In this document: positions 52,255 through 64,000 of the stretch, one piece after another | Layout of the letters: each line of letters opens with the position of its first letter | Position numbering within the stretch: the first letter of the stretch is position 1 | Assembly: GCF_003258365.1 (NCBI RefSeq) | Contig: NZ_QHKM01000001.1 | Span: forward strand, 248,001 to 312,000 | Reading direction: 5' to 3' | Source: Hymenobacter edaphi | GTDB taxonomy: Bacteria; Bacteroidota; Bacteroidia; Cytophagales; Hymenobacteraceae | DNA: 64,000 nucleotides | Program-made: the position numbers and the translations under genes | The notes under the pieces: model-generated | The model's input: the letters and a program-made list of their open reading frames with translations, nothing else | What the model was told of the DNA's origin: nothing | The model's database searches: none

Positions 52255-52575
52255 CGCGTAGCCGGGCCAAACTCCTCGCAGTGAATGGCTTCGCGGAGCA
52301 CGCCCAGGGTCGTCGGGTCCGGCACCTGCTTGCGGATAAAGGGCGCCGGGCCGCACACGTAGTAGTCGGCTGCGGGCGGCCAGATACCGCCGTTGAGCGG
52401 CTGCCGATAGATCCACGATGCCCGCGTAGTGCCCGGCGCCGGCGCGTCGGAGAAGAGGTGCTGCTGCGGGTTGCCGTAGCGGGCGGCCCAGTCGGCCACC
52501 GGCCCGCAGCGGGCGTGCACCGCGGCGTTGCGGCCGCCGGGCACCCACACGATGTCGCGGGGCTGCCGCTGCGCC
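52255..52575 (-). pseudogene. Remnant of a flavohemoglobin / NO dioxygenase C-terminus
   Basis: On the minus strand, an open stretch reads RDIVWVPGGRNAAVHA, then about 60 residues ending ADYYVCGPAPFIRKQ and LREAIHCEEFGPAT. These are the C-terminal marks of the Hmp reductase domain: the H-A/G-x-R-N-x-x-V-H-A NAD site, the Y-x-C-G-P-x-P-F-[MIL] motif and the closing I-H-x-E-x-F-G-P. The globin and FAD-binding parts and a start codon are missing, so this is a decayed fragment. It lies just past a universal stress gene in the stress block. Confidence 0.7.
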
Positions 52576-52614
52576 CAGGATGACCGGCGGCTTATCGGCC
52601 CAAGCTGGCCGGCG

Positions 52615-53439
52615 TCAGTGCATGGTGGGAAGCACCAGCACGGGCACGGGGCTGTGCTGCAGCAGCTGGGCCGTGACGCTGCGGTGAAACAGCCCGTCGA
52701 GGAAGGTATGCGGGCGGGCCAGCACCACCAGCAGGTCGGCCTGCAGCTCGGCCACCGCGTGCACGATGCCGGCGGCGGTGGCTTCCTCGCGCACTTCGTA
52801 GAGGCTGTTGTCGGAAAGCGGGCCGAACAGCTCGCAGCGGCGCACGGCCTCGAAGCCCACCGTGGCCCGCGAGGGACCGTGCGCCGGGCCCACGTGGACC
52901 ACCGTAGTACGGGGCTGCCAGCGGGCAATCAGCTCGCCCAGGGCCAGCGACTCGGGCGTGAGCCAGAAGCCGTGGCCGTCGGCGGCCACCACGAGGCGGC
53001 GCGGCGGGGCGTCGGCGGGCCAGCTTTCGGGCACCAGCAGCAGGGGGTAGCGGGCCGTTTGCAGAATGGGGCCGGCCTGGAGGCGCAGCAGGCGCTCCAC
53101 CAGCGTGCTGTGCTGCTCGCGGCCCAGCGCCAGCAGCAGGGGGTGGTGCTGGGCTACCACCTCGGCCACGGCGTCGCTGAGCATATCGACGGAGAGGTGG
53201 GTTTCGGTGGGCAGTTCCAGCTGCCGGGCGCGGGCGGCCAGCTCGGCCAGCACCCGCTTGCGGCTTTGCAGCACCAGGGGCAGCGTCACCATGGCGGCCT
53301 CGGGCTCCAGCAGCGGGTCTTGGTACACGTGCAGCAGCACCAGGCGGCCATCGACCTGCCCGGCCAGCTGAATGGTGTAGCGCAGCGCCCGCTCGGCGGC
53401 GGGCGAAAAATCGGTGAGAACAACGAAGGCGGGGTGCAT
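52615..53439 (-). CDS. Tandem universal stress protein (UspA x2)
   Basis: 274 residues with two UspA domains: FVVLTDFSPAAERALRYTIQLAGQVDGRLVLLHVYQ at the start, and RRLVVAADGHGFWLTPESLALGELIAR in the second half, closing with ELQADLLVVLARPHTFLDGLFHRSVTAQLLQHSPVPVLVLP. The H-R-S-V-T motif near the end is shared by all three USPs in this block. The ATP-binding G-x2-G-x9-G pattern is weak, so it may not bind ATP. Probably a cytoplasmic protein protecting cells in low oxygen or nutrient stress. Confidence 0.9.
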   Translation of the reverse strand: MHPAFVVLTDFSPAAERALRYTIQLAGQVDGRLVLLHVYQDPLLEPEAAMVTLPLVLQSRKRVLAELAARARQLELPTETHLSVDMLSDAVAEVVAQHHPLLLALGREQHSTLVERLLRLQAGPILQTARYPLLLVPESWPADAPPRRLVVAADGHGFWLTPESLALGELIARWQPRTTVVHVGPAHGPSRATVGFEAVRRCELFGPLSDNSLYEVREEATAAGIVHAVAELQADLLVVLARPHTFLDGLFHRSVTAQLLQHSPVPVLVLPTMH

Positions 53440-53513: not shown

Positions 53514-53729
53514 TCAGCGCTGCCAGGGGCGGTGGGTGCTCAGGCCCAGCAGGCCGTAGAGCGGGCAGTAGCCGGTGGCGCCGGTCAGCAGCAGAAACAG
53601 GGGAATGAGCAGCCACGCCAGCATTTCGGGGCCGCTGAACTGGTTGCCGAGCACCAGCAGGCCGGCGGCAATTGCCGCCGCCAGCGCGATGCGAATCACC
53701 CGGTCGTAGGAGCCAATGTTCTGAGTCAT
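53514..53729 (-). CDS. DUF2892 (YgaP-like) inner membrane protein
   Basis: 71 residues from ATG 53729. The start QNIGSYDRVIRIALAAAIAAGLLVLGNQ, second helix MLAWLLIPLFLLLTGATGYCPLYGLLGLST matches DUF2892, in which the G-x-C-P-x-Y-x-x-L-G motif is conserved. Two TM helices, role unknown; in other organisms it is fused or next to rhodanese domains, suggesting a sulfur or thiol link. Sits between the BON and USP genes of the stress block. Confidence 0.87.
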   Translation of the reverse strand: MTQNIGSYDRVIRIALAAAIAAGLLVLGNQFSGPEMLAWLLIPLFLLLTGATGYCPLYGLLGLSTHRPWQR

Positions 53730-53804: not shown

Positions 53805-55016
53805 TCAGGCCACTAGGGGCGGCGGAACATCGGCCGCCGCGGCTGGCCGCGGCGGCCGGCTGGTATGCGCCTGCACCAGCAGCGCGTTGACGACGCTGAG
53901 CACGCCGGCCGTGCCGACGGCCAGCTCCTGCAGGCGGGCTTTCTCGAAGTGCCCGGGCACGGTGCCGTGCAGGATGGCGCGGCCGTGCTCGACCGCCCAG
54001 TTCACCGGCAGGGCCTGCACGTAGGCATCGTGGGCCTGCGCCCGGTGCAGGCTGTGGAGCAGCTCCGCATCGTCGGGCAGGCGGCGCGGCCACACGCGCA
54101 GGTGGTTGTTGACGTGCCAGATGCCGGTGGCATTGCGGGCGTCCTGCTCGGCGGCCTGGCGGGCGCGCACGGTGCTCACGGCCCCGTTCAGCGTAGCCAC
54201 GCCGTTGACGACCTCCACGGCGGGCAGGTCGGTGCCCAGGCGCTCATCCAGCTGCCAGGCGTCGTGAATGGCCTGCGCGCTGTCGCCGTCGGGCACGCGC
54301 AGGCGCGGGGCCCGGGGCTGGGCGGCCGGTCGCGCCCATACGCCCACGGCCAGCTGCCCGGCGTCGACGGCGGTGGCGCCGGCGGCCCAGGCCGTGGCCA
54401 CCAGCCGGCTGCGGGTGCAGTCCGAGTCGACGGCCCCGCGCAGGCGCACCCGGCCGCGCTGCACCTGCACGTCCACGCCGTCGGCGCGCAGGTAGGCGTC
54501 CCAGGTGAGCTGCTCGTCGAGGTAAAGGCTCAGGTCGGCGTCGCTGATGCCCTGCGCGGCGGTGCAGGTCAGGCGGTCCTGCACGTGCCAGATGCCCACC
54601 ACCTGCTTCACCACGCGCAGCAGCCACTGCTTGACTACCCACGAATCGACCACGCCGCTCAGGGTGGCGGTGGCGTGCTGCACCGCGAGCTGCACGGCGG
54701 GGTGGGGGCCGCATTCCGCCGCCAGCAGGGCCGCGGCCCGTTGCTGCAGCAGCTCGTCGGGCAGGTCGGCCGTGCGCATCTGCAGCTCGTTGACGACGCC
54801 GCGCACGCCGCCGACGGCCCGGGCCAGCTCCTCGGCGCGCTCCAGCGACAGAAGGTTGTCGGTGAAGCCCGTCAGGCGCACGATGCCCCGCACCACGGCC
54901 ACCTGAATGCGGGTGTCGTGCACGCCGGGCTTGAGGGTGTATTGCCGGTGGACGGCGGCGGCCAGCTCCGCATCAGCGGGCGGCGGCAGGGAAAGGGTGT
55001 CGAGCAGGTGATTCAT
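53805..55016 (-). CDS. Protein with five tandem BON domains
   Basis: 403 residues made of repeats of about 70 residues. BON pattern D-x-x-I-x-x-A-V-x-x-G-x-V-x-L-x-G is visible in TRIQVAVVRGIVRLTGFTDN, VQLAVQHATATLSGVVDS, VDVQVQRGRVRLRGAVDS, VEVVNGVATLNGAVST and VNWAVEHGRAILHGTVPG. BON domains bind phospholipid or envelope partners, usually in the periplasm (OsmY), but no signal peptide is present here. In Bacteroidota such soluble BON proteins sit with USP genes. The upstream region carries the dyad at 55093-55104. Confidence 0.88.
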   Translation of the reverse strand: MNHLLDTLSLPPPADAELAAAVHRQYTLKPGVHDTRIQVAVVRGIVRLTGFTDNLLSLERAEELARAVGGVRGVVNELQMRTADLPDELLQQRAAALLAAECGPHPAVQLAVQHATATLSGVVDSWVVKQWLLRVVKQVVGIWHVQDRLTCTAAQGISDADLSLYLDEQLTWDAYLRADGVDVQVQRGRVRLRGAVDSDCTRSRLVATAWAAGATAVDAGQLAVGVWARPAAQPRAPRLRVPDGDSAQAIHDAWQLDERLGTDLPAVEVVNGVATLNGAVSTVRARQAAEQDARNATGIWHVNNHLRVWPRRLPDDAELLHSLHRAQAHDAYVQALPVNWAVEHGRAILHGTVPGHFEKARLQELAVGTAGVLSVVNALLVQAHTSRPPRPAAAADVPPPLVA

Positions 55017-55092
55017 GGGGCAACAGGCTGTGGAGTAAGTGAATATCCATGTTTGCTGGTCCTGATTCCATGACGTGCGTTACCCGAATTCG

Positions 55093-55104
55093 TGACTTAT
55101 ATCA
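55093..55104 (-). promoter_or_regulatory. CRP/FNR-like dyad, site A
   Basis: TGACTTATATCA, a TGA-N6-TCA dyad, 77 bases before the BON start. It overlaps the stop of the upstream USP gene. Confidence 0.55.
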
Positions 55105-55977
55105 TGCCGTCGACCGGTCGAAATCGGCGGCCAGGGGCACGGCATCGGCTTCGACGACCGGCAGCAGCAGCACCGGCACGGGGCTGCGCTCCACCACCGC
55201 GGCCGTCACGCTGCGGTGAAACAGCTCGCCGAGGTAGCTGCGCGAGCGGGCCAGCAAGACCAGCAGGTCGGCGCCGACTTGCGCGGCCGCGCTCAGCAGG
55301 CCGGTGGGCGCATCGGGGGCCAGGCAGCCGCGCAGCTCCACGGCGGCCGCGGGGGCCAGCAGGCCGCTGTCCTGCACCGCCCGCAAGGCCCGGGCGCAGC
55401 CCGCGTCGTCCTCCACCGCCGACACGTAGGCGACGGTGAAATCGGCCCCCAGCGACTGGAGCAGCCCGGTGGCGGCTTCGCTGGTCGGGGCCAGGCCAAA
55501 GGCTTCGGGGTCGGCGGCGATGAGCACGCGCTGCGGCAGGTCGGCCGCGGCGGCGGCTTCGGGCACGAGCAGCACCGGAAACTGGGCGGCCCGCAGCAGC
55601 TCCAGCGCGGCCGTGCTCAGCGGCCCGGCGTCGGCGAGGCCGGGGGCGGGCAGGCCCAGCACAAACAGGGCCGGGGCGTAGCGCTGCGTCAGGGCCGGGA
55701 GCATGGCCGGGAGCAGGTCGGTCACCAGCTCCACCGTGGCGGGGGCCCGGAGCTGCCCGGCCAGCTGGCGCAGCAGCGCCGCCGCGTCGGCATCCTGGGC
55801 CAGCTCCTGGCGGCGCCAGGCTTCCCCGGCAAACATGTAGGGGTCGTAGAGCGAGGCGCGGTGGGCGTGCAGCAGCAGCAGCTGGCCGCCCTGGGCGCTG
55901 GCCAGGGCGTCGGCGTAGCGCAGGGCCCGCTGCCCGGCCGGGTAAAAGCTGGCGAGAACAAGGAAGGTAAAGGCCAT
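55102..55977 (-). CDS. Tandem universal stress protein (UspA x2)
   Basis: 291 residues. UspA 1 begins FTFLVLASFYPAGQRALRYADALASAQGGQLLLLHAHRA, UspA 2 begins about residue 150 (PQRVLIAADPEAFGLAPTSEAATGLLQSLGADFTVAYVS) and ends LGELFHRSVTAAVVERSPVPVLLLPVV. Like the other two members it lacks the full ATP-binding motif. Follows the 56008 USP gene with a 30-base gap, so the two form an operon. Probably arose by duplication of the same ancestral tandem USP. Confidence 0.9.
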   Translation of the reverse strand: MAFTFLVLASFYPAGQRALRYADALASAQGGQLLLLHAHRASLYDPYMFAGEAWRRQELAQDADAAALLRQLAGQLRAPATVELVTDLLPAMLPALTQRYAPALFVLGLPAPGLADAGPLSTAALELLRAAQFPVLLVPEAAAAADLPQRVLIAADPEAFGLAPTSEAATGLLQSLGADFTVAYVSAVEDDAGCARALRAVQDSGLLAPAAAVELRGCLAPDAPTGLLSAAAQVGADLLVLLARSRSYLGELFHRSVTAAVVERSPVPVLLLPVVEADAVPLAADFDRSTA

Positions 55978-56007
55978 GGCGGCAGGGAAAAAACGATGGC
56001 GGAGAGC

Positions 56008-56868
56008 TTAGTCGGCGGCGGGCAGCAGCAGCAGCGGCACGGGGCAGGAGCGCAGCAGGCGGCTGGTGACGCTGCGGTGAAACAGCGCGCTCAGGAAGCT
56101 GTGGCGCCGGGCAATGAGCACCAGCAGGTCGGCGCGGGTGAGGGCCACGGCCTGCAGCAGGCCGGCCACCGGCGAGTGGTGCCGGATGGCTTCGACGTGG
56201 AGGTGGCCGGCAGCGGCCAGCCCGGCGGCCTGCACCTGCTGCCGGGCCGTGGCGCACACCGCGTCTTCCGCCGCCGCCGACACGGTGGCCACCGTCAGGC
56301 GCGGGGCCAGCTGCCGGAGCAGCTGTAGGGCCGGGCCGGGGTGCTCCAGGCTGAACGGGTCCCCGTCGGCCCCCACCAGCGCGTGCGTGGGCAGGGCCGC
56401 GCCCCGGTAGGCCTCCGGCACGATGAGCAGCGGAAACTCGCCGCTGCGCAGCACGTCCAGCACGGCCTGGCTGACGGGCACGTCCTGCACGGCCTCGGTC
56501 GCCAGGCCGAGCACGAACACGGCCGGGGCATAGCGGTGGAGCAGGGCGGCGGCCGTGCTCAGCTGCAGATCGGGCACCAGCTCGATGCTGGTGGGCACGT
56601 ACACCTCGTCGGCCAGGGTTTGCACGGCCGTGCGCAGCTCCCCGTCGCGCTCCTTGCCGGGCTGGTCGAGCAGCTCTCCCTCGAGCACCGAAACCTCCCG
56701 CACGTGCAGCAGCACGAGCTGGGCCCCCAGCGGGGCAGCCAGCTCGGCCGCGTAGCGCACGGCCCGGTGCGCGGCGGGGAAGAAATTGGTCAGCACAATA
56801 AACGACAGGGGCTTAAGCTCGCCCGCCGGCGGCGCCGAGGGTGCGTTTTGGATCTGGTTCAGGGTCAT
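56008..56868 (-). CDS. Tandem universal stress protein (UspA x2)
   Basis: 286 residues from ATG 56868 (an upstream ATG at 56925 would add 19). First domain: FIVLTNFFPAAHRAVRYAAELAAPLGAQLVLLHVREVS; second: ALVGADGDPFSLEHPGPALQLLRQLAPRLTVATVS, ending LSALFHRSVTSRLLRSCPVPLLLLPAAD. First gene of the USP pair; its upstream region holds the dyad at 56973-56984, so it is a likely primary target of the stress regulator. Confidence 0.9.
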   Translation of the reverse strand: MTLNQIQNAPSAPPAGELKPLSFIVLTNFFPAAHRAVRYAAELAAPLGAQLVLLHVREVSVLEGELLDQPGKERDGELRTAVQTLADEVYVPTSIELVPDLQLSTAAALLHRYAPAVFVLGLATEAVQDVPVSQAVLDVLRSGEFPLLIVPEAYRGAALPTHALVGADGDPFSLEHPGPALQLLRQLAPRLTVATVSAAAEDAVCATARQQVQAAGLAAAGHLHVEAIRHHSPVAGLLQAVALTRADLLVLIARRHSFLSALFHRSVTSRLLRSCPVPLLLLPAAD

Positions 56869-56972
56869 GGCCAAAGCAGGTAAGGTGAACGGGTGTTGAC
56901 GAGGACGAGCATTGCCCGGCCGCATCGGCCGGCTGCCTGGTAAAGGTGGCTCCGTGCCCAGGTTGTCAGCAA

Positions 56973-56984
56973 TGATTTATGTCA
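56973..56984 (-). promoter_or_regulatory. CRP/FNR-like dyad, site B
   Basis: Reads TGACATAAATCA on the minus strand, identical to site C. 105 bases before the ATG of the USP gene at 56868. Confidence 0.6.
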
Positions 56985-57013
56985 GCCAGGAAATTGCCGC
57001 AAGCAGTGCGGGT

Positions 57014-58534
57014 TCAGGGTTGAGGCGGGGCCGTGGCCAGGGCCCGGCGCAGGGCGGCGTCGCGCCGGTAGATATCGGGGTAGAAGCGCAGCCGGCCCTG
57101 CGCCACGCCGCAAGTAGCGTAGCACACGTGCAGGGGCATGGGCCGGCGCAGCCACACGTTGCGGGCGCGGGCGTCGCGGGCGCAGGTGGCCTCGTCGGGG
57201 AGCTGCACCGGGCGGTCCTCGCGGCGCAGCAGGTAGGCGGCCAGGCGCATGGGCTCGGCCACCCGCATGCAGCCGTGGCTGAGGGCCCGCTGCGGCTGCT
57301 CGAAAAGCTGGCGCGCGGGCGTGTCGTGCAGGTACACGGCATAGGGGTTCGGGAAGCGGAACACGATGTTGCCCAGGGCGTTGTCGCAGCCCGCCGTCTG
57401 GCGGATGATGTAGGCGAAGTTGCGGGCCGTCACCCGCGACCAGGCCACCCGCCACGGGTCGAGCAGCCGGCCGCGGCGGTCGTAGAGCGCGTAGTGGTTG
57501 CGGGCCAGGTAGCCGGGGTCGGTCTGCACGCGCGGCAGGATTTCCTTGGTGGCAATGGAGCGCGGCACGTACCAGTCGGGGGCCAGGGTGAAGTACAGAA
57601 TCTGGCTGCTGAGCGTGGGCGAGGGCGTCTGGGGCTTGCCCACCACCACGCGGTGCTGCTGCCGCACGGAGTCGGCGCGCACCACCAGCAGCTCGAAGGC
57701 GGGCAGGTTGACGAGCACGTACTCCGAGTCGGGCAGCGCCTGCCAGCGCCAGCGTTCCAGGTTCAGGGCCACCTGCTCGTAGCGGGCCTGCCAGCGGGCC
57801 GCCGAATCGGGGGAAACCGGCTCGCGCAGCCACCGGGCCAGGGCCGCCTGCAGCCGGCGGTACTCGCGGTGCCGGGGCTGGCAGCCGAGCACCGCCGCCC
57901 GCACGTCGGCGGCGGCCAGGGCCTGGCGCAGGGTATCGGCGGGGCTGAACGGGGTGCCGCTGGCGCGCTCCGCGGGCGAGGGTGTGGCGGGGCGCAGCCG
58001 GCCGCGGTGCAGGTCGCGCATCAAGCTCAGGGCGGCGTCGCTCAAATACACCTCGAAGCGGGCCTGCCGCGCCGGCCGCTGCGCATCGGCGGGGCCGGCC
58101 AGCGAGTCGCGCAGGGCCTGCAGGCGCGGCAGCTCGTAGTACGCCGGCTGCAGCCCGTAGGCCGGCGCCTGCTCCAGCAGGGTCAGCAGGGCCCCGGCCG
58201 CGGGCGCGGGCGCGCCGCCGGCGCGCGTCCAGACGGGTGTCGGTACCGGCCCGTAGAGCGCCCGCACGGCCTCCGCGCTCTGCAGGCGGGGCCGGCCGGC
58301 GGTCCGCACCGTGTCCAGCAGTACCCGCAGCCAGTGCGCCACCGGCGTTTCGCCCGGCAGCACGGCGTCCACCGCCACGGCCCGCACGGGCAGCCCGGGG
58401 GATACCGCCAACGGCGCCGCTACGGGCTCATCGGGGCGCCGCGGCGCCGCCAGCCACCAGCCGATCAGCAGCAGCCCGGCGGCGTACAGGGCCGGGCGCG
58501 TCAGGTGGCTGAGCAGGGAGTCGAAGGTTTTCAC
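57014..58534 (-). CDS. L,D-transpeptidase, YcbB/LdtD-like
   Basis: 506 residues from GTG 58534, which overlaps the dehydrogenase stop (GTGA). An N-terminal TM (ALYAAGLLLIGWWLAAP) anchors it with the rest in the periplasm. A helical scaffold domain follows and the YkuD catalytic domain is near residues 300-450: QHRVVVGKPQTPSPTLSSQI, then LHDTPARQLFEQPQRALSHGCMRV with the catalytic H-x14-17-S-H-G-C. It forms 3-3 cross-links in peptidoglycan or attaches proteins to it, an adaptation to stress or stationary phase. The match to YcbB includes the large insert. Confidence 0.93.
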   Translation of the reverse strand: MKTFDSLLSHLTRPALYAAGLLLIGWWLAAPRRPDEPVAAPLAVSPGLPVRAVAVDAVLPGETPVAHWLRVLLDTVRTAGRPRLQSAEAVRALYGPVPTPVWTRAGGAPAPAAGALLTLLEQAPAYGLQPAYYELPRLQALRDSLAGPADAQRPARQARFEVYLSDAALSLMRDLHRGRLRPATPSPAERASGTPFSPADTLRQALAAADVRAAVLGCQPRHREYRRLQAALARWLREPVSPDSAARWQARYEQVALNLERWRWQALPDSEYVLVNLPAFELLVVRADSVRQQHRVVVGKPQTPSPTLSSQILYFTLAPDWYVPRSIATKEILPRVQTDPGYLARNHYALYDRRGRLLDPWRVAWSRVTARNFAYIIRQTAGCDNALGNIVFRFPNPYAVYLHDTPARQLFEQPQRALSHGCMRVAEPMRLAAYLLRREDRPVQLPDEATCARDARARNVWLRRPMPLHVCYATCGVAQGRLRFYPDIYRRDAALRRALATAPPQP

Positions 58535-59556
58535 GGCGAGCAAACGGGCTGCAGCACCGGCGGGGCCGGCTGCAATTCGTGGGCGGCGGGCTGACCCTGC
58601 GCCCAGGCGTCGAGGTGGTCGACGGTGGTGGTGGCAATGTTGCCCAGCGCCTCCCGGGTGAGGAAGGCCTGGTGGCCAGTCACCAGCACGTTGGGCTGTT
58701 GCAGCAGCTTGTCCAGCAGCGGGTCGGGGGTGGCTTCCTGGCGGTGGTCTTCGAAGAAAAGGCCGCGCTCATGCTCGTACACATCGAGGCCCAGGTAGCC
58801 GAGCCGGCCCGACTGCAGGGCGGCCAGCGCGGCGGCCGTGTCGAGCACCGCCCCGCGCCCGGTGTTGATGAGCATGGCCCCGGGCTTGAACTGGGCCAGC
58901 AGGTCGGCATCGATCAGGTGGCGCGTTTCAGCGCTAAGCGGGGCGTGCACCGAAATGATGTCGGAAGCCGCGCACAGCTCGGGCAATGACACGTAGCGCA
59001 GGCCGGTGCGCTGGCTCAGGGCCGGGTCGGGCTGCACGTCGTAGCCCAGCAGGCGGCAGCCGAAGCCGTGCAGGATACCCGCCAGCACCCCGCCGATGCG
59101 CCCGCAGCCGATGAGGCCCACGGTTTTGCCGTGCAGGTCGAAGCCCACCAGTCCGTCGAGGCGGTAGTCGTGGCGGCGCAGCTGCTGGTCGGCCTGGCGC
59201 AGGCGGCGGTTCAGGGCCAGCATCAGGGCCACGGCGTGCTCGGCCACGGCGTAGGGCGAGTAGGCGGGCACGTTGGCCACGCGCAGGCCCAGGCGGGCGG
59301 CAGCCGGCAGGTCTACCTGGTCGTGGCCGGCGGCGCGCACGGCCACGTAGCGCACGCCCAGTTCGGCCAGGCGCGCCAGCACCGGGGCCGAGGCATCGTC
59401 GCTGGTAAAGAGGGCCACGGCCTGGCTGCCGGCGGCCTGGGCCGCGGTGCCGAGGGAAAGCGGCGTTTCCACAAAGCGCAGCGCATGCCGCCCGGCCGCC
59501 GCGGCGGTGAGGTGGGGCTGCTCGTAGGCGTGGGCGCTGAAAACGGTGACGTGCAT
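58531..59556 (-). CDS. D-2-hydroxyacid dehydrogenase (D-lactate dehydrogenase, LdhA-like)
   Basis: 341 residues. NAD-binding GLIGCGRIGGVLAGILHGFG, then the catalytic set: R in INTGRGAVLDT, E in YEHERGLFF and H in VTGHQAFLTREAL. FVETPLSL, AVRAAGHDQVD and SPYAVAEHAVAL are LdhA hallmarks, so it is probably a fermentative NADH-dependent pyruvate to D-lactate reductase. This fits oxygen limitation. Overlaps the L,D-transpeptidase start and is the first gene of that pair; the dyad at 59811 lies about 255 bases upstream. Confidence 0.93.
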   Translation of the reverse strand: MHVTVFSAHAYEQPHLTAAAAGRHALRFVETPLSLGTAAQAAGSQAVALFTSDDASAPVLARLAELGVRYVAVRAAGHDQVDLPAAARLGLRVANVPAYSPYAVAEHAVALMLALNRRLRQADQQLRRHDYRLDGLVGFDLHGKTVGLIGCGRIGGVLAGILHGFGCRLLGYDVQPDPALSQRTGLRYVSLPELCAASDIISVHAPLSAETRHLIDADLLAQFKPGAMLINTGRGAVLDTAAALAALQSGRLGYLGLDVYEHERGLFFEDHRQEATPDPLLDKLLQQPNVLVTGHQAFLTREALGNIATTTVDHLDAWAQGQPAAHELQPAPPVLQPVCSP

Positions 59557-59664
59557 GAGCAAGGGGAAGTTAGTTGATTGGGATGTAAGGTGTTTTGAAT
59601 GAGCTGCTTGAATGGTTTTGCTTAAACAATGACAGCAGATTTGGCGTCAGCCCGGACGTAGCCG

Positions 59665-59823
59665 TCACAGCCCGGTGAACAGCACGTCGGACGCGCCGTA
59701 TTCGGGCACTGTTACGTTGGGCCAGCCCCGTTCCAGGCGCAGCGCCTGGGCCAGGCAGGCGGCGGCCGGCAACGGGTAACAAGTATACCGGAGCCCACGC
59801 AGAAAAAAGATGACATAAATCAT
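59665..59823 (-). CDS. Candidate small protein (52 aa), uncertain
   Basis: Minus-strand ATG at 59823 opens 52 codons to TGA at 59665. The peptide has a short hydrophobic N-terminus (MIYVIFFLRGLRY), two Cys (TCYPLPAAACLAQAL) and the run LERGWPNVTVPEYGASDVLF. The codon use is GC3-rich like real genes nearby. The ATG lies inside dyad C, so if real the mRNA would be nearly leaderless. It may be a small stress-linked protein or a chance ORF in the leader of ldhA. Confidence 0.35.
   Translation of the reverse strand: MIYVIFFLRGLRYTCYPLPAAACLAQALRLERGWPNVTVPEYGASDVLFTGL
59811..59822 (-). promoter_or_regulatory. CRP/FNR-like dyad, site C
   Basis: TGACATAAATCA with flanking A...TT, identical in core to site B. 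It lies upstream of the dehydrogenase/L,D-transpeptidase operon. Confidence 0.6.
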
Positions 59824-60145
59824 TGAATAACACGATACTTGTGCTGGTTTTGGGCGGCAGGAGCTGCGTGCTGGACGGCTGATCGGTACGGAGCCCGCGG
59901 GGCCGGCCCCGACCGGACCCGGCGGGTTTCCGCGGGCCGCCAGCCGGGTGCTGGGTGGCCGCGTCGTAAGCGTAAGTGCCTGCTTGACAACGCACCGCTT
60001 TGCCCCGGCAGCAGCCGGGCGCCGCGGCCGGGGCCGAATCGGCAGCCAAGCTCGGCCTTGTGCCGTATGAGGAAGCACCAGCCGGCCGGCTGCGCGTGCA
60101 GGCCGCCGGCACCGTTTTCGTCCCATTCCTTTACTACCCAGCAGC
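59824..60145. other. 322-bp divergent intergenic region
   Basis: Between the stress block and the small acidic-protein gene at 60146. Only short palindromes seen; the promoter of the right-hand gene should be here. Confidence 0.45.
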
Positions 60146-60499
60146 ATGGCTACCACGCCCGACCCCGCTCAGTCCTCCTCGCCCAATGCCGCCGAGGAGC
60201 CGAAGCGCCCCAACCCCAGCAACAGCGGCGCCAACGATAACCCCGACGAGTTCAGCGAATTCCGCAAGCCCAACGCGCCCGGCACCGAAGACTACAGCTC
60301 GGAAAGCCGCCGGGCCGACCCCCGCGAGCAGCCCGGCCACGTGGAGCAAAACCAGGACCCCGACGCCGTAGCCGCCGCCCAGAACGCCGGCAACGACGAG
60401 CAGCGCGCCGCCTGGAAGGCCGACGACCCGCGCTACGGCAGCGGCCACCGCCCCGGCACCCAGCGCAGCCCCGCCGACGGCGGCGAAGACGCCGACTAA
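60146..60499 (+). CDS. Acidic, disordered hypothetical protein
   Basis: 117 residues rich in Pro, Asp, Glu, Asn and Gly with no hydrophobic segment (for example EEPKRPNPSNSGANDNPDEF, DYSSESRRADPREQPGHVEQ). It is probably intrinsically disordered and hydrophilic, in the manner of stress-protective hydrophilin-like proteins; this is an inference. No family seen. A perfect 20-bp hairpin terminates it. Confidence 0.75.
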   Translation: MATTPDPAQSSSPNAAEEPKRPNPSNSGANDNPDEFSEFRKPNAPGTEDYSSESRRADPREQPGHVEQNQDPDAVAAAQNAGNDEQRAAWKADDPRYGSGHRPGTQRSPADGGEDAD

Positions 60500-62490: not shown

Positions 62491-63204
62491 GTGGACGATT
62501 ACCTGCTCTTCGTGGACACCGAAACCACCGGCCTGCCGCGCCGCTGGGACCAGCCCTACGCCTCGGGCCAGTGGCCCCACGTGGCGCAGCTGGCCTGGCA
62601 GCTCTACACCGCCGCGGGCGACTTTGTGAAGGAAGAAAACCACTTCCTGCAGATTCCGGTGGGCACCATGCCCGCCGCCGCCGTGGCCGTGCACGGCATC
62701 ACGCCGGCGTTTCTGCACCAGCACGGGCAGGCGCCCGGCCCGGTGCTGCAGCGCCTGCTGGCCGATCTGGCGCGGTTTCAGCCGCGCGTCGTCGGCTACT
62801 TTCTGCAGCTCGATTTTCACGTCATCGGGGCGGCGCTGCACCGCGCCGGGCTGCCCAACCCGCTGCCCGCCCTGCCGCAGTTTTGCACCATGAAAGTCAG
62901 CGGCCGCCCCGACGACGGCACCCACCGCCGCTACCGCCGCCTGGCCGAGCTGCACGAGCTGCTGCTGGGCCAGGCGCTGCCCCGCCTGCACGACGCGCGC
63001 GAGGACGCCGCCGCCACCGCCCGCTGCTTTTTTGAGCTGCAGCGCCTCGGCCGCATCCCGCCCGCCGTACTCCGCGGGCAGCCGCCGCTGAGCCCGCCTA
63101 CCGGCCCGCCGCCCGCCGTTTGGCCGCCCCGCTCCTTGCTGCTCGTGGGCGGTGCCCTGCTTCTCGTTCTGCTTTTTCTAGCCCTGCTATGGATACTCGT
63201 TTAG
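62491..63204 (+). CDS. DnaQ-like 3'-5' exonuclease with a C-terminal TM
   Basis: 237 residues from GTG 62491 (DDYLLFVDTETTGLP). DEDDh motifs: D and E in FVDTETTG, the HGITPAFL loop, a D in YFLQLDFHVIGAAL and HDAREDAAATARC. The last about 25 residues (RSLLLVGGALLLVLLFLALLWILV) form a TM helix, unusual in this family. The stop overlaps the next gene by 16 bases; exonuclease plus cNMP/CBS pairs are seen in many bacteria, hinting at a shared nucleotide-signalling role. Confidence 0.88.
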   Translation: MDDYLLFVDTETTGLPRRWDQPYASGQWPHVAQLAWQLYTAAGDFVKEENHFLQIPVGTMPAAAVAVHGITPAFLHQHGQAPGPVLQRLLADLARFQPRVVGYFLQLDFHVIGAALHRAGLPNPLPALPQFCTMKVSGRPDDGTHRRYRRLAELHELLLGQALPRLHDAREDAAATARCFFELQRLGRIPPAVLRGQPPLSPPTGPPPAVWPPRSLLLVGGALLLVLLFLALLWILV

Positions 63205-64000
63205 CCTTTCTGCGCACCGTGGAGCCCTTTGCCTTCCTGCCCGACGAGGTGCTGGCCGGCGTGGTGGAGCTGCTGGAGGAAGTGAAGCACCCCAAGGAAA
63301 CCCTGCTCTACCAGCAGGACGTGTCGAAGCTGCGCCACCTCGACATCGTGGTAGAGGGCGCCTACGACACGTTTTTCCTCGACAGCGAGCAGCGCCAGCG
63401 CCTGCCCGAGGTGTACGGCCCGGGCACCAGCTACGGGGGCATGTCCATTTTGCTCAACAAGAAGCGCAGCCTGCGCACCGTGGTGGCCCGCGCCGGCACC
63501 CGGGTGCTGCAGCTGCCGCGCCGCGACTTCCGGGCCCTGTGCCTGGCCTACGAGCCGTTCTTTCAGTACTTCACCCACCGCTTCGGCCAGCGCATGCTCG
63601 ACGACGAGTACGCGCACTTCGTCAAGCCCGCCTCGCCGCCGGAGGAGAATTTCCTCGTCGCCGACCAGCTCTTCTCTCGCCGCATCGACTCGCTGGAAGT
63701 GCGGCCCATTGTGGCCTGCCCGGCCAGCACGCCCATTTTTCAGGTGGCCCGGCGCATGGCCACCACCAAGGTCAGCTGCCTGTTCGTGACCGACGAGAGC
63801 GGCGACAACCTCACGGGCTACTGCACCGACATCACCCTGCGCGACGCGGTGGTGGCCAAGTGCCTCGACGCCCAGCGGCCGGTGGGCGAGGTGGCGGCCA
63901 CCCCGCTGGTGTCCATTGCCAGCGCGGCCTACGTGCACGAGGCCATCCTGCTCATGTTTCAGACCAAGACGCGCTACCTGCTGGTGGAGCGCGCGGGGCG
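63189..64000 (+). CDS. cNMP-binding/CBS domain protein (DUF294-type), 3' partial
   Basis: ATG 63189, running past the window end (270 complete codons visible). Residues about 10-125 are a cyclic-nucleotide-binding domain (FAFLPDEVLAGVVELLEEVKH, GTSYGGMSILLNKKRSLRTVVA), and from about 165 begins a CBS pair (PASTPIFQVARRMATTKVSCLFVTDESG, GYCTDITLRDAVV, VHEAILLMFQTKTRYLLVE). Full-length relatives continue with a DUF294 nucleotidyltransferase-like domain. It probably senses cNMP or adenylates. The upstream exonuclease overlaps and is co-translated. Confidence 0.88.
   Translation, partial: MDTRLAFLRTVEPFAFLPDEVLAGVVELLEEVKHPKETLLYQQDVSKLRHLDIVVEGAYDTFFLDSEQRQRLPEVYGPGTSYGGMSILLNKKRSLRTVVARAGTRVLQLPRRDFRALCLAYEPFFQYFTHRFGQRMLDDEYAHFVKPASPPEENFLVADQLFSRRIDSLEVRPIVACPASTPIFQVARRMATTKVSCLFVTDESGDNLTGYCTDITLRDAVVAKCLDAQRPVGEVAATPLVSIASAAYVHEAILLMFQTKTRYLLVERAG

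Follow-up and report, generated by a model that had tools for sequence, protein, structure and literature searches.

What purpose is served by a 12-bp dyad that stands before three neighbouring groups of stress genes in Hymenobacter edaphi? We analyzed a window of 64,000 nucleotides (the whole stretch of DNA considered here; contig NZ_QHKM01000001.1, positions 248,001 to 312,000), in which the dyad TGAC[AT]TA[AT]ATCA occurs at 55093–55104 (site A), 56973–56984 (site B) and 59811–59822 (site C) with no further copy; the maximum count in 100 dinucleotide-preserving shuffles was 0. As a preliminary description of the window had stated, the dyads lie 77, 105 and 255 bp from the called starts of a BON-domain gene, a universal stress protein (USP) gene and a dehydrogenase gene, respectively. 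The operons concerned are BON-YgaP-USP, USP-USP, and a beta-CASP nuclease gene (a stub here) followed by dehydrogenase and L,D-transpeptidase genes. We consider it probable that the three dyads are FNR/FixK-type operators that place the three stress operons in a low-oxygen regulon. The copies are near-palindromic, so their strand carries no meaning.

In the whole genome (6.04 Mb, 43 contigs) the exact motif has four matches, three of them within 4.7 kb, and the reversed-pattern control has 0. Each of the four stands before a BON, USP or dehydrogenase/L,D-transpeptidase gene; the fourth is 117 bp upstream of another BON gene. Two of the four are clear of called genes. Site A overlaps the final 3 bases of a called gene, and site C falls within a 53-aa low-score open reading frame (ORF; 59665–59823) that starts in the dyad, ends in the beta-CASP stub and is regarded as spurious. 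Genes were called with a home-made program based on codon usage and trained on 10 genes of the window, and their starts are approximate. The looser pattern TGAYNTANRTCA gives 13 genomic sites versus 6 for the control; among the nine found only in this way, eight lie inside called genes, with one in a low-score ORF (L006) and one at an ORF's first bases (L011).

Eight genomes of the genus hold 17 exact copies versus 1 in the control, with 0 copies in G001. Of these loci, 12 carry a BON, USP or L,D-transpeptidase/dehydrogenase gene downstream of the site, the weaker cases being a USP gene behind a globin-like gene (L021), a broken BON gene (L024) and a USP gene 440 bp off (L025). One further locus has a beta-CASP gene (L031), and four (L023, L026, L030, L032) have no such stress-gene or beta-CASP neighbour within their 3-kb loci. 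The BON copy at L024 (1719–2121, genome G006) was detected only as several tblastn pieces, with the dyad TGATATATGTCA still ahead of it.

Could these be chance AT-rich matches in a GC-rich genome? Bare TGA-N6-TCA is frequent, with 15 occurrences in the window versus 4.3 expected, 12 of them outside the three sites, so that this spacing by itself does not identify an operator. The exact 12-mer hardly exceeds background outside the genus: controls are similarly large in many genomes, and any of the queried genes is present in just 3 of 30 fetched 12-mer loci. On those counts we rejected the exact 12-mer as a general regulatory unit; it may instead mark an AT-rich subclass, as the three of four inner bases that are invariant in 5/5 genomes at site A suggest. 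Chance is nevertheless scarcely credible as an explanation of the three sites, given the shuffle maximum and reversed control of 0, the islands of conservation at orthologous places and the fixed spacing to a −7 box.

Conservation can be followed in Hymenobacter jeollabukensis (L131), which is syntenic across the block and has the closest BON-gene locus (91% identity) among named loci, a comparison that may leave out records very near the window's genome. Dyads stand there at all three matching places, with TGAY and RTCA kept and one inner base changed at each: site A reads TGATATAAGTCA in the window and TGATATACGTCA in H. jeollabukensis, site B TGACATAAATCA and TGACAGAAATCA, and site C TGATTTATGTCA and TGATTAATGTCA. 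In the alignment of site A, 9 of 12 dyad columns are invariant across five genomes, compared with 1/40 upstream; in one of the five (L025) the downstream gene found is USP, not BON. Site C has 11 of 12 columns invariant in 4/4 aligned genomes. Exactly 23 nt after it lies TATACTTG (59780–59787, minus strand), which resembles the Bacteroidota −7 box and is invariant in 8/8 columns of the same four genomes, compared with 6/40 upstream and 1/37 downstream. Both dyads, A and C, stand out from their flanks as islands of conservation, as does the −7 box of C.

TGAY-N4-RTCA, the FNR/FixK core, is present at A, B and C and preserved at the orthologous sites. We read this core as the general unit because cbb3-type sites in the genus carry differing centres, for example TGACGTTCGTCA; the AT-rich centre is retained in the stress-block dyads. 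The preliminary description had left room for CRP as well as FNR, and TGA-N6-TCA spacing is indeed common to CRP sites. However, cAMP-CRP operators of the form TGTGA-N6-TCACA are very improbable here: no TGTGA half-site occurs in A, B or C, the targets are respiratory and stress genes, and the Glu and Arg that contact cAMP appear by eye to be missing from the sensor domains of the candidate regulators.

The dyad also keeps a fixed distance to the core promoter. The pattern TGAYNNNNRTCA-N23-NANNYTTG has 60 matches versus 0 reversed controls and is present in 8/8 genus genomes; among the 30 hits fetched as loci, none of the 43-bp sites lies wholly within a called gene. When the spacer was freed (10–38, TGAC starts only), 94 matches were found versus 26 controls, 34 of them at spacer 23 and no more than 8 at any other length. 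Seven of the eight at spacer 12 belong to one repeated sequence family. A separate arrangement of dyad, 12-nt spacer and AAATTTG, TGACGTCNGTCAACGGTTTCAATCTAAATTTG (G000:C28:408446–408477), is conserved in 7/8 genus genomes. A stricter pattern gave 204 matches versus 6 controls in 37 genomes of the class, 34 of which are positive, and 39 matches in 26 genomes versus 5 controls among 111 genomes outside the class. The sigma-A box TAnnTTTG of Flavobacterium psychrophilum has been mapped at −12 to −5 (PMC9723704); given a 23-nt spacer, the centre of the dyad would fall at −41.5, as at class II promoters. The position of the −7 box consensus is taken from Flavobacterium, and start sites at the present loci are predicted accordingly. 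The constant dyad-to-core-promoter distance, found for the genus pattern and at site C, thereby points to class II geometry, with −41.5 calculated from the published box.

Which genes stand behind such sites? The nine class II hits of the window's own genome precede genes for a CcoI-type ATPase, CcoNO (COX1 and FixO), a fatty-acid hydroxylase, a fatty-acid desaturase and a Pta-type phosphate acetyltransferase, the site C operon, and three proteins without a Pfam match. Targets in the 30 fetched genus loci include ccoN, ccoI and USP genes; Pfam was applied to L093 only, and the targets of the other relatives were named by eye. The closest experimental parallel that we found is the Fnr regulon of Sphingopyxis granuli, an alphaproteobacterium, where the box TTGAc/t-N4-g/aTCAA lies at −41.5 before ccoN and uspA (PMC7713065). 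This FnrN/FixK-type system shares with the present sites the TGAY-N4-RTCA core, the −41.5 position (predicted here) and the ccoN and usp targets. The sites described here differ in their −7 box, TAnnTTTG, in the outer T/A, which is not conserved, in the BON, L,D-transpeptidase and beta-CASP genes behind them, and in tandem dyads 22–23 bp apart.

The preliminary description had proposed one regulon for low oxygen or nitric oxide. Its low-oxygen part is well supported: in the genus, genes for cbb3 oxidase and USP are preceded by this dyad at the same fixed 23 nt from the −7 box. The case for nitric oxide in particular is not supported. The flavohaemoglobin (Hmp) remnant adduced for it is real: 52260–52580 on the minus strand, between the USP3 gene and a histidine kinase gene, aligns to residues 287–399 of PDB 1cqx (E 3.9e-13). 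It is a C-terminal piece only, and no dyad is tied to it. The two ORFs around this piece gave no Pfam match; the PDB comparison gave flavohaemoglobin. At the syntenic locus of H. jeollabukensis the neighbour genes are 29 bp apart, which leaves no room for a flavohaemoglobin.

Iron-sulfur FNR proteins can respond to nitric oxide as well, and with the remnant adjoining the block and globin-like genes (by eye) following dyads in two relatives (L096, L100; L096 without a Pfam match), a nitric oxide-responsive Crp/Fnr regulator of the DNR/NnrR/HcpR type has some appeal. We nevertheless regard it as unlikely and do not favour it: cbb3 oxidase genes, for both assembly and structural proteins, are among the targets in this genome, the remnant is neither intact nor linked to a dyad, and the genome's own PF13545 hits over the cut-off are FNR and two hybrids only (three weaker hits fall outside this classification). 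A globin gene with Pfam support does occur in the genome's cbb3 region, where it follows a gene for a small membrane protein.

Low oxygen thus remains the preferred signal, and the genome offers two candidate types of regulator, listed here from PF13545 matches only. Three HTH_Crp_2 (PF13545) proteins score over the cut-off, an FNR-like protein (L014) and two hybrids (L015, L016), in addition to the three weaker hits. L014 is similar to the FNR of Aliivibrio and E. coli (PDB 5cvr/5e44 group) over residues 11–232 of 237 and has the E-x-x-S-R helix, as ETASR. Its four cysteine columns (CxxC...C, VVC) are conserved in 12/12 FNR rows, which include an identical pair, L150 (G005) and L132 (Hymenobacter sp. 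CRA2), so the named and other genome sets may overlap. In contrast to solved FNR, its C2–C3 spacing is longer. An oxygen-labile [4Fe-4S] cluster is a putative property of L014.

L015 and L016 are receiver-cNMP-HTH_Crp (REC-CRP) hybrids. L015 adjoins the cbb3 operon and a gene for a FixL-like PAS kinase, and it has no FixJ-type output domain. The best 7 of 16 PDB rows for the kinase PAS domain are FixL, followed by DosP, and the proximal His and distal Arg of the FixL heme domain both align in the kinase. It is described here as a FixL-like, putative heme/oxygen sensor. A dyad, TGACGAATATCA, lies 92 bp upstream of the kinase gene (L127, 18970–18981), and autoregulation is possible. Among HTH_Crp_2 protein types, only that of L015 scores over the cut-off in all eight genus genomes, at 80–100% identity. 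A further gene in the window, 63189–63998 (plus strand), encodes a cNMP-binding and CBS-domain protein and runs past the window end.

Does the classical four-cysteine FNR control the sites by itself, with the REC-CRP hybrid serving other targets? The recognition helix ETASR and the CxxC...C and VVC cysteines of L014 would suit that role. In Hymenobacter sp. CRA2 (L132) the stress island itself includes an FNR homologue, with a dyad in the interval that separates it from a BON gene, and in the window's own genome a class II site follows the FNR gene (C21:309816). Behind that site, similar small proteins (by eye) are encoded downstream of the FNR gene (L125, 6039–8301), the one tested having no Pfam match. 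Site numbers are also higher with FNR in g3, with means of 18.0 where both regulators are present (23 genomes) and 14.8 with the hybrid alone (18; p = 0.005). On the other hand, G001 and G003 lack an FNR of this type, the hybrid being their only clear PF13545 protein (apart from one borderline hit in G001); class II sites nevertheless number 6 and 5 in them, and USP, cbb3 and by-eye globin genes are among the targets. In genus g5 the 22 genomes with both regulators average 4.68 sites, the nine with only the hybrid 4.00, the eight with only FNR 1.50 and the four lacking both 0.75; FNR is immaterial among the REC-CRP genomes (4.68 versus 4.00, p = 0.67), and genomes with the hybrid average 4.48 (31) versus 1.25 without it (12, p = 7e-6). 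In g4 and g6 together there are 8.9 sites with the hybrid (21 genomes) and 0, 7 and 4 in the three genomes without it. Regulator presence was set by E-value thresholds of our own choosing, and both relatedness and the loss of linked targets confound these counts. We consider control by FNR alone a less likely alternative.

Our preferred regulator would be the REC-CRP hybrid encoded beside the FixL-like kinase and the cbb3 operon, with the four-cysteine FNR acting on overlapping sites. Low oxygen would activate the hybrid, through the FixL-like kinase, and/or FNR, and on falling oxygen the Crp/Fnr-family activator would bind the dyad. With its centre at −41.5, the class II dyad would set the activator beside RNA polymerase held by the Bacteroidota −7 box, and the activator would recruit the polymerase. 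At site A the window dyad would be the distal one, at about −63.5, and a weaker proximal dyad would occupy −41.5.

Among the closest known arrangements is FixL-FixJ-FixK, which likewise has a FixL PAS kinase, a response regulator and a Crp/Fnr DNA-binding output, with cbb3 genes (fixNO, fixG, fixI type) as neighbours and targets (PMC4999443). The difference here is that receiver and CRP output are combined in one protein (REC-cNMP-HTH_Crp), and the FixJ step would be skipped. For the Hymenobacteraceae, and perhaps for many members of the class, we put at about even chances a shortened FixLJ-FixK cascade, in which a FixL-like heme-PAS kinase would phosphorylate REC-CRP and REC-CRP would itself bind FNR-type dyads at −41.5 that are shared with FNR. 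Such a cascade would switch on the high-affinity oxidase together with islands of universal-stress, BON and cell-wall genes. Full-length REC-CRP homologues are present in 23/37 class genomes sampled, a count of hybrids alone and not of kinases.

Several observations weigh against assigning the dyads to an FNR/FixK-type low-oxygen regulon. The motif, its conservation, the fixed spacing, the genome-wide targets and the candidate regulators are observed in sequence, and from them we infer the start sites, binding, direction of control, oxygen signal and acting regulator. None of A, B and C has the outer T/A pair of TTGAY-N4-RTCAA; among 30 class II sites of the genus, T occupies position −1 in 17% and A occupies position +1 in 10%. 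Base −1 is instead C in 60% of the 30 loci, many of which are orthologous, and the outer T/A of E. coli FNR is not kept. Because this pair is not kept, the sites are read as having an FNR-type core and not as canonical FNR boxes. A good −7 box is found at site C only, with A and B deviating from TAnnTTTG, and the Sphingopyxis regulon comes from another phylum. The class sample separates less well by regulator, with 6.2 sites where a full-length hybrid is present (23 genomes) versus 4.4 where it is not (14). Sites persist where both candidates are absent (G012 7, G068 6, G088 10 and G053 4; G010 0), including two genomes in g3 with 6 and 10. Co-occurrence does not separate the two candidates, and the sites kept where neither is present make it likely that another regulator acts or that a homologue was missed.

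The case as we see it would be the FNR/FixK theme set in a Bacteroidota promoter geometry, with a candidate hybrid regulator. In a search of open-access literature, which takes in few subscription journals, we found no paper on Hymenobacter FNR control of universal stress proteins, on a Bacteroidetes Fnr/cbb3 binding-motif regulon, on Hymenobacter microaerobic cbb3 or on Bacteroidetes receiver-domain CRP/FNR regulators with cbb3. If the reading is true, the box and its fixed 23-nt spacing would allow oxygen-controlled promoters to be predicted simply throughout the class, and the USP and BON genes of these bacteria would gain a testable signal, with two candidate regulators named.

How do the three promoters compare in detail? 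Site A, upstream of the BON operon on the minus strand, is the distal member (predicted at about −63.5) of a conserved tandem pair of dyads 22 bp apart. The proximal dyad, TAACGCACGTCA (TAAY-N4-RTCA; 55071–55082, minus strand), lies 22 bp downstream of A, where −41.5 is expected; this form is present in 5/5 aligned genomes, with 6 of 12 columns invariant. In the flanks, 1/10 columns between the dyads and 4/36 downstream are invariant. A weak −7 box, GATATTCA (55040–55047, minus strand), follows the proximal dyad at 23 nt, and the other four aligned genomes read GATATTTA, GACATTTG (L132), GATTTTGG and CAACTTGC at its place. Paired dyads 22–23 bp apart also occur before ccoI, before ccoNO and behind the FNR gene. 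Operon A, predicted from gene spacing, comprises genes on the minus strand for the BON-domain protein (53805–55016; PF04972, 5 stretches), a YgaP-like transmembrane protein (53514–53729; PF11127) and a tandem USP protein (52615–53439; PF00582).

Site B, on the minus strand, stands before the USP1-USP2 operon; it is probably class II, though weak. Its −7-like element (56941–56949, minus strand) can be read as CCACCTTT at 23 nt or CACCTTTA at 24 nt, both poor matches to TAnnTTTG. The operon consists of two tandem USP genes on the minus strand, at 56008–56868 and 55102–55977, each identified by domain search.

Site C, likewise on the minus strand, occupies the class II position. The preliminary description was right that it precedes the dehydrogenase/L,D-transpeptidase operon and misread the first gene, which in H. 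jeollabukensis is a beta-CASP metallo-hydrolase (nuclease) gene, followed there by the dehydrogenase and the L,D-transpeptidase. By comparison with that gene, the window retains just the last 33 residues, 88% identical, as a C-terminal stub (59668–59766, minus strand), and the 255-bp leader before the dehydrogenase exists because the beta-CASP gene is reduced to this stub. The first intact gene is now that of the D-2-hydroxyacid dehydrogenase (58531–59556, minus strand; PF02826, PF00389), and the L,D-transpeptidase gene follows (57014–58543, minus strand; PF03734, PF20142). On the other side of site C, at 11 nt, lies a divergent −7-like box, GATACTTG (59834–59841, plus strand), directed toward 60146–60499. 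More speculatively, this may be a repressed promoter, where protein on the dyad would more probably obstruct transcription than stimulate it. The 11-nt divergent spacing is the same at the matching site in G002, G005 and G006, making four genomes in all.

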